A DNA stretch of 64,000 nt from Hyphomicrobiales bacterium (GTDB taxonomy: Bacteria > Pseudomonadota > Alphaproteobacteria > Rhizobiales > Aestuariivirgaceae), in contig JANYHB010000002.1 in the NCBI GenBank assembly GCA_025359265.1, positions 108,014-172,013 of the forward strand, in the 5' to 3' direction. The notes beneath the pieces were generated by a model that saw only the letters and a program-made list of their open reading frames with translations, was not told where the DNA came from and ran no database searches. Shown here in pieces: positions 9,496 to 11,070 of this stretch (the first letter of the stretch is position 1; each line of letters starts with the position of its first letter). The translations under genes and the position numbers were made by a program.

Positions 9496-10029
9496 ATGAC
9501 AGAAAATCTCAAAACTCTTTTATTGGTCGATGACGATAGACCCTTTCTCACCCGCCTTGGAAAAGCCATGGAAGCGCGCGGCTTTGAGGTGCGCCTGGCA
9601 GATACGGTGGCCGAGGGCGTGGCCGAAGTGAAAAAGCTGCCGCCCATGTTTGCGGTGGTTGATTTGCGTTTGGCTGATGGCAATGGTCTTGATGTGATTG
9701 AGGCGCTCCATGCCGCCAAGGCAGACGCGCGTGTCGTTGTGCTCACCGGTTATGGCAACATCGCCACCGCCGTCACCGCCGTAAAACTGGGTGCCATAGA
9801 CTATCTTGCCAAGCCTGCCGATGCCGACGCTGTTTACGGAGCCTTGATCGGAGGTAAGGATCAGCGCAATGTCCTGCCAGATAATCCCATGTCGGCAGAC
9901 CGGGTGCGCTGGGAACATATCCAACGGGTATTTGAACTGTGCAATCGTAACGTCTCTGAAACGGCACGGCGCTTGAATATGCATCGCCGCACGCTGCAAC
10001 GCATTTTGGCCAAACGCGCGCCGAAATAA
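9496..10029 (+). CDS. regA: RegA/PrrA/ActR family response regulator
   Basis: REC domain (LLVDDDRPFLTRL, VVDLRLADGNGL, VLTGYGNIATAVTAVKLGAIDYLAKP) plus Fis-type HTH (NVSETARRLNMHRRTLQRILAKRAPK). Confidence 0.9.
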   Translation: MTENLKTLLLVDDDRPFLTRLGKAMEARGFEVRLADTVAEGVAEVKKLPPMFAVVDLRLADGNGLDVIEALHAAKADARVVVLTGYGNIATAVTAVKLGAIDYLAKPADADAVYGALIGGKDQRNVLPDNPMSADRVRWEHIQRVFELCNRNVSETARRLNMHRRTLQRILAKRAPK

Positions 10030-10079
10030 ACTCCGCTGCATTCATTTTTATAAAACCAACACCCCGCACATTCTCTTGA

Positions 10080-10452
10080 CATTTTTTGCCAGAGGTCCAA
10101 CATCGAATGATCAGCAGCAGTGATTGGCGCTGATGTAAACCTAAAAGTTTAAGCAGAAATTGGAGGGGCCATGACTCCACCAAATTACCACCTCTGATCA
10201 CAATTTTTAATGTGATCACTTTCCGGTTCCGCCGTGCGGCTGAAACCCGTGAATTCCGTACCGGAAGGCCAAGCGCATAAATTTGAATTGCTGAGTGAGC
10301 CTGTCTCACTTTTTATGGGTTCGGATTGATCCGGACCATTTCAAGCTAAAACTCGATCCTCCCGAGGGCCCCGCTGGCGCACCACGTCGCAGCGGGGCTA
10401 GGCTTCTGGGTGATCTGCATCAACAGACGGAAGGCCGTCGGATTGGAACCCC
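10080..10452. other. Hairpin-rich intergenic segment, candidate structured ncRNA/regulatory region
   Basis: Series of perfect short inverted repeats (10195-10218; GAGTGAG-CCTGT-CTCACTTTTT; CCCCGCTG...CAGCGGGG; GACGG-AAGG-CCGTC), TTGACA-N17-AACATC promoter-like start near 10074, no convincing ORF. Confidence 0.45.
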
Positions 10453-11070
10453 CTAAGCCAACACTTCCACATTGGCAGGCAGCGAATTCGCCATCAACGT
10501 ATAGATTGTCGGTACACCAGTCTCCAACTCGCGCTTCAAAATCTGCTCGGGCGTCAAACCTTCAATCGCCATGATCAACGACCGCAGTGAATTGCAATGC
10601 GCCGCAACTAGAACAGTTTTGCCTTCCAGCACATGCGGCTGAATCATGTGCACATAATAGGGCAGTGAACGTGCCAAAGTGTCTTTCAGCGATTCACCGC
10701 CAGGTGGTGGCACATCATAAGAACGACGCCAGACCAGAACTTGTTCTTCACCAAACTTCTTGCGGGCGTCGTCTTTGTTGAGGCCCGTGAGTTCACCATA
10801 GTCGCGCTCATTCAGCGCTTGGTCTCGCGTTTCGGGCAATCCAGTTTGACCGAGCTCATTCAAGATCAGTCTTAAAGTGTGCTGCGCCCGCGTAAGCGCT
10901 GAGGTGAAGCATAGGTCAAACTTCAAACCTTTGGCCCTTAAACGCTGGCCAGCGGCCCGGGCTTCTTCAATGCCTTTGGGCGAAAGATCAGGGTCTTTCC
11001 AGCCGGTGAAAAGGTTCTTCAAATTCCAATCGCTTTGTCCGTGGCGAACCAGCACTAAAGTTCCACTCAT
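10453..11070 (-). CDS. gpmA: 2,3-bisphosphoglycerate-dependent phosphoglycerate mutase
   Basis: [43 protein letters not shown]. Confidence 0.95.

Follow-up and report, generated by a model that had tools for sequence, protein, structure and literature searches.

Background

The reading of translation elongation by RNA is known mainly from leaders that act in cis. In Salmonella, translation of the proline codons in a short ORF of the mgtL leader reportedly sets the fate of the structured RNA; mgtL acts in cis on mgtA, whereas the RNA described below is without a downstream gene. We know of no described class of RNA that works via a diprolyl-paused ribosome without a downstream gene.

Further ribosome-reading systems resemble the present locus in part. 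The rnTrpL RNA (peptide, peTrpL) of Sinorhizobium meliloti is an alphaproteobacterial small RNA in which a very short ORF is translated and hairpins depend on the ribosome, and it is a leaderless tryptophan attenuator from the trpE 5' UTR (PMC10117765). In CruR, the copper uORF of Bordetella with the RAPP arrest motif, a Pro-Pro-based ribosome arrest is used for regulation (PMC9426467). In the duf1127 leader of S. meliloti, the start of a uORF within a structured leader reads ribosome availability, and an sRNA containing the uORF was observed (PMC12218461).

The locus studied here shares the general plan of rnTrpL, with an ORF whose translation is predicted, but differs from it in having a Shine-Dalgarno sequence, a diproline motif and a promoter of its own, and in lacking an associated operon. 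It differs from CruR, in which a far longer ORF arrests the ribosome in cis close to its C-terminus (residues 139-142) and EF-P is not involved (PMC9426467), and from the duf1127 leader, which has a 29-residue uORF and a C-rich attenuation element and acts in cis (the word 'proline' is absent from PMC12218461). The RNA would function like these leaders (mgtL, CruR, duf1127 uORF and rnTrpL) minus the downstream gene that defines them. A description of the motif or family was not found in the open-licence literature (most subscription journals fall outside this scope); a rhizobial RNA-seq study may already have recorded the RNA as an unnamed sRNA.

Homology searches and distribution

Homologs were collected with BLAST and with three covariance models, of which R1 comprised the 3' part without the ORF, and R2 and R3 comprised the core of Shine-Dalgarno sequence, ORF and hairpin H2. 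Members used for statistics were accepted after reading of the Shine-Dalgarno sequence, the M-x-P-P start and H2; the tabulated search matches were read in part. Weak covariance-model matches (L041, L102-L104, L108, L121-L124, L137 and L138) were set aside after reading. A terminator-pattern scan also caught unrelated terminators (Cupriavidus, Microbacterium and others), and its matches were retained only when the Shine-Dalgarno sequence and ORF lay upstream.

Conservation in relatives, which the initial annotation had named as a check, was recovered by BLAST and by all three models. Among 69 genomes of the same family, positions 10071-10399 were matched in same-genus genomes with identity up to 78%, and within the genus (Aestuariivirgaceae) the RNA was found in 13 of 37 genomes (a 14th match is doubtful). 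With R1, a second genus yielded five homologs, and further families of Hyphomicrobiales also proved to contain the RNA; R3 matched 44 of 398 genomes of this order (18 genera) at E <= 0.01, of which 40 passed E < 3e-4. Three genomes from other alphaproteobacterial orders (L134, L135 and L136) carry the RNA, the last with a weak match (E = 0.005) that reads as a member. Among the named carriers are Aestuariivirga sp. YIM B02566 and Taklimakanibacter lacteus.

The RNA gene and its surroundings

The whole stretch of DNA analysed (the window) is 64,000 nucleotides long. As the initial annotation had it, the gap that hosts the RNA gene lies between regA (ActR/PrrA/RegA family, 309 bits against a cut-off of 250), which ends at 10029, and the convergent gpmA (phosphoglycerate mutase, 350 bits against a cut-off of 316; 10453-11070, minus strand). 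Positions 10071-10399 of the plus strand almost certainly form a freestanding RNA gene, conserved and structured, with a promoter, a structured body of ~295 nt and a GC-rich terminator-like hairpin (Table 1). The block conserved in BLAST runs from the TTGACA box to the end of the GC-rich hairpin, and the source genome holds a single copy of the gene. Beyond gpmA, the segment 12853-13385 (plus strand) holds a ParD-family antitoxin gene (TIGR02606, 76.6 bits) and, overlapping it, a 95-aa ORF that, by reading, resembles a ParE/RelE-type toxin.

Table 1. Features of the RNA gene, in window coordinates
Feature	Position	Strand	Evidence
Promoter, CTTGAC-N17-CAACAT	10075-10103	+	Equal spacing kept in relatives with other flanking genes
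RNA gene body (predicted transcript ends)	10108-10400	+	3' limit, end of BLAST block (10399); start inferred from promoter
H1, 5' hairpin, ATCAGC/GCTGAT	10110-10134	+	Other letters in relatives, pairing kept (by eye)
Shine-Dalgarno, GGAGG	10162-10166	+	Stretch rich in GGAG between -9 and -5 in almost every one of the 42 members
Mini-ORF, MTPPNYHL*, diproline at codons 3-4	10171-10197	+	Start codon and x-P-P in 42 of 42
H2, TGATCACA-N8-TGTGATCA	10195-10218	+	7 of 8 pairs with double-sided changes (27 sequences)
H3, TTCCGGT/ACCGGAA, inner CCGC/GCGG	10221-10266	+	Double-sided pair changes within genus; unalignable outside genus
AGTGAG/CTCACT hairpin	10294-10310	+	Position and pairing kept, letters differ (by eye)
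H4, GGTTCGGA/TCCGGACC	10318-10337	+	5 of 7 counted pairs with double-sided changes
H5, CTCG/CGAG	10352-10366	+	Weak: 93% of cells paired, zero double-sided changes
H6, terminal GC-rich hairpin, terminator-like	10368-10398	+	99.5% of cells paired

The location beside regA that the initial annotation gave proved incidental, because the neighbours differ between relatives. Both regA and gpmA flank the RNA in the window and in L009, and in L004 this test showed regA only; elsewhere, with gene names read from translated ORFs, recQ lies upstream (L005-L008), hisD lies beside the RNA (L010, L012 and L014), or a decarboxylase gene and uvrA do so (L011), and many other genes adjoin it in further relatives. 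The genes past the terminal hairpin are unrelated and run in either direction; the next gene is convergent in the window (gpmA) and in many relatives. Since the promoter and the terminal hairpin are kept while the contexts change, the gene probably forms an independent transcription unit. A constant co-directional gene directly downstream was found in none of about 40 loci from several families (neighbours taken as the longest ORFs), and a cis-acting leader (riboswitch or attenuator) was rejected.

Comparison with known RNAs

The earlier failure to match the region to a known RNA class was borne out. No Rfam 15 family, SRP RNA, RNase P RNA and riboswitches included, reached its gathering score in the whole window, and 15 homologous loci were without a match at E <= 1; at E <= 5, positions 9900-10600 gave nothing credible, with two listings, che1 RNA (RF02935) and the mir-2834 microRNA family, the former a chance match scoring 18 bits (gathering score, 54.1; E = 3.5) on the opposite strand. 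6S RNA (RF00013) was rejected, as the 6S RNA of this genome lies elsewhere (G000:C41:22449-22609, 62.7 bits), and ARAGORN found neither tRNA nor tmRNA in the window. A seed conserved across families was not found.

Secondary structure and covariation

All of the motifs listed in the initial annotation were located in the window, and most of them belong to the RNA gene: TTGACA (10076-10081), N17 and AACATC (10099); TTCCGGT (10221) and ACCGGAA (10260) around CCGC-CGT-GCGG (10229); AGTGAG-CCTGT-CTCACT followed by TTTT; CGGAT (10322) and ATCCG (10329); and CCCCGCTG (10369) with CAGCGGGG (10390). GACGG (10426) and CCGTC (10435) are present but lie outside the RNA, past both the terminator-like hairpin and the end of the conserved block (10399), as does the second of the two copies of GGAAGGCC (10263 and 10429). 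TGGAG (10161) and CTCCA (10175) are likewise present; their letters are those of the Shine-Dalgarno sequence and codons 2-3, and a hairpin sequestering the former was rejected, since its pairing is not conserved (one inner pair becomes A-G in five of 13 close relatives, with ACG as codon 2). H2, the best-supported helix, had been overlooked.

The single-sequence fold was no stabler than shuffles (z = -1.36 for the plus strand and -1.20 for the minus strand), so the stems alone are no proof of structure and the case rests on relatives. In an alignment of 19 sequences, the 30 pairs of four helices were formed in 96.5% of cells and double-sided changes occurred at 13 pairs; the covariation score was 0.317, shuffles averaged 0.169, and none of the 500 shuffles reached the observed value. 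Relatedness inflates such counts, but in a control that preserves relatedness, with partners slid by one column, pairing still fell to about 40%. The set of 27 sequences, which spans several families, had H2 and the terminal hairpin formed in 96.3% of cells. In summary, 10 of 16 pairs had double-sided changes with 96% of cells paired, and 0 of 500 shuffles matched; covariation, which the initial annotation had suggested as a check, is strong.

Most relatives keep a T-rich tail after H6 (5-10 T), but this tail has degenerated in the window copy (four of the 12 positions 10399-10410 are T), whose 3' end may be formed differently from those of the relatives. In other families, a GCGAGG/CCTCGC stem takes the place of the AGTGAG/CTCACT hairpin. 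In L087-L096, which come from several families, H2 and the downstream stem have arms with identical letters (GCGAGG/CCTCGC), and alternative pairings between the two are possible; mutually exclusive pairing is not claimed, as the two stems do not vary jointly in every clade (L012, L036 and L088). Separately, conservation around CCCCCGGTTGTGAGGACGG in L090, L092 and L094 (genus g132), about 100 nt 5' of the ORF, suggests an RNA with a longer 5' domain in this genus.

Mini-ORF and coding constraint

A Shine-Dalgarno sequence and a mini-ORF, overlooked in the initial annotation, are conserved in the 5' part of the RNA. Read by codon, the alignment has the general pattern GGAGG, a few bases, and ATG-ACN-CCN-CCN. 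The start codon is ATG in 40 of the 42 members (CTG and TTG in one each). Codon 2 encodes Thr (31), Ser (five, by AGT and TCA), Asn (four), Asp (one) or Ile (one). Codons 3 and 4 encode Pro in all 42, a count that is partly circular outside the R1 set because a CCNCC screen was applied to later homologs; all five second-genus homologs from R1, in whose selection the ORF was not used, carry it. Codon 3 is CCA in 39 of 42, and codon 4 draws on all four Pro codons (CCG 20, CCT 11, CCA nine and CCC two).

Between similar members, substitutions in codons 2-5 numbered 32, 103 and 224 at the first, second and third positions, and those in codons 6-8 of the longer ORFs numbered 53, 59 and 57, without third-position bias (both sets are from non-independent sequence pairs). 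The bias in the former and its absence in the latter indicate that selection on the protein acts on the first residues of the peptide but not on the codons that follow. The ORF length is 7-24 residues (eight in the window copy); the commonest form, of 19 codons, is present in 18 of 46 sequences, which belong to different families.

The initial annotation was therefore right about a structured RNA gene, as conservation and covariation in relatives attest, and was probably wrong in taking it as purely non-coding, because of the conserved Shine-Dalgarno sequence and the M-x-P-P mini-ORF. The RNA has the marks of a dual-function sRNA, namely its own promoter, a terminal hairpin and a conserved Shine-Dalgarno sequence with a coding-constrained ORF, the constraint being confined to codons 1-5.

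Predicted pause geometry and EF-P

In 34 of 42 members, H2 starts at +25/+26 (24 or 25 bases past the A of ATG). In toeprinting, the leading edge of the ribosome lies 15-16 bases downstream of the first base of the P-site codon. A ribosome whose P site holds the second Pro codon (+10 to +12) would therefore have its front at +25/+26, where H2 starts in these members.

At PPG, the paused ribosome has its P site occupied by peptidyl-Pro and its A site by Gly; in E. coli profiling, PPD and PPN occurred only among the pausing motifs, and PPK and PPQ occurred in pausing and non-pausing genes alike (PMC4140641). Codon 5 of the mini-ORF encodes Gly in 23 members, Asp in 12 and Asn in four, so that 39 of 42 carry a predicted diprolyl-pause motif (PPX, X = G, D or N); the window copy reads PPN. 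Lys, Met and Gln occur once each.

EpmA, the EF-P lysylation enzyme, is encoded in the source genome and in 35 of the 37 genus genomes, against 13 of 37 for the RNA; no link between the RNA and EF-P modification emerged, as EpmA is present with or without the RNA. The RNA is also absent from the two genus genomes without an above-cut-off EpmA (G015 and G022), which are fragmented drafts; this may be chance.

Proposed mechanism and alternatives

The gene, the promoter, the terminal hairpin, the covariation, the coding constraint on codons 1-5 and the fixed spacing were all read from the sequences compared here. The explanation that we prefer, tentatively and at somewhat short of an even chance, is a translated freestanding regulatory RNA in which a ribosome is parked or timed at a diprolyl pause and the structured body is the effector. 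A ribosome would load at the strong Shine-Dalgarno sequence, synthesise fMet-x-Pro-Pro and halt before residue 5 (Gly, Asp or Asn) in a classical EF-P-dependent diprolyl pause, with H2 beginning at its front. Two states of the RNA would then occur, one in which the ribosome waits in front of H2 and one in which a ribosome that got past has entered H2; the fold, stability and pairing of the RNA would report how readily ribosomes cross the Pro-Pro block. H3-H6, the 3' body, would serve as effector, in trans because there is no associated downstream gene. Transcription, translation, the pause, EF-P dependence and action in trans are deduced from the features above. The presence of EpmA in the source genome agrees with this explanation. 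Points against it include K, M or Q at codon 5 in three members, CTG as the start codon of one member, a patchy RNA in a genus where EpmA is nearly universal, and an effector region that is unalignable across families. It is possible, if rather doubtful, that the ribosome paused at M-x-P-P|G beside H2 switches or protects a trans-acting RNA that serves as a cell-wide gauge of elongation or of EF-P capacity.

The main rival is an ordinary trans-acting sRNA whose single-stranded GGAGG/AUG/CCNCC segment is a seed that pairs with target mRNAs or the 16S 3' end, the reading frame being incidental; we consider it unlikely. It would fit a freestanding gene without a downstream partner and codons that are not constrained as protein from codon 6 onward, and the preference for CCA at codon 3, stricter than the coding of Pro requires, points to some extra constraint at the RNA level. 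However, a pairing seed should not vary at third positions with positions 1 and 2 fixed, whereas codon 4 takes all four Pro codons and Ser at codon 2 is written by both AGT and TCA; nor does a seed need a start codon after a Shine-Dalgarno sequence.

The RNA might instead be a small mRNA that works through its peptide of 7-24 residues, with hairpins that merely tune translation and stability. The strong Shine-Dalgarno sequence, the conserved start, the coding constraint on codons 1-5 and the recurrence of the 19-codon ORF across families agree with this, but the variable length (only eight residues in the window copy), the unconstrained codons 6-8 and ~200 nt of conserved 3' structure, superfluous for a mini-mRNA, make it improbable. 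The uORF, the hairpins and the terminator-like hairpin also resemble alphaproteobacterial ribosome-reading leaders (PMC12218461, PMC10117765), as would be expected of the remnant of a leader or attenuator (similar to amino-acid or stress leaders) that formerly controlled a downstream gene in cis and now stands alone; the lack of a constant downstream gene in ~40 loci of several families, with the next gene often convergent, renders this very improbable. Chance stems or a decayed mobile repeat, to which the unremarkable single-sequence fold and the shifting locus might point, are refuted by the covariation and are practically negligible, given also the single genomic copy, the deep conservation and the absence of phage copies (window query) and of plasmid copies (L107 query).

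Conclusions

The RNA constitutes a new family, absent from Rfam 15, that extends across several alphaproteobacterial orders. A seemingly non-coding intergenic stretch may conceal a mini-ORF that is detectable only by comparison. From the conserved parts a testable prediction follows, namely a start-proximal diprolyl pause exactly before a covarying hairpin. If this is true, a freestanding RNA would read translation elongation (EF-P supply, proline charging or antibiotics) and act in trans.
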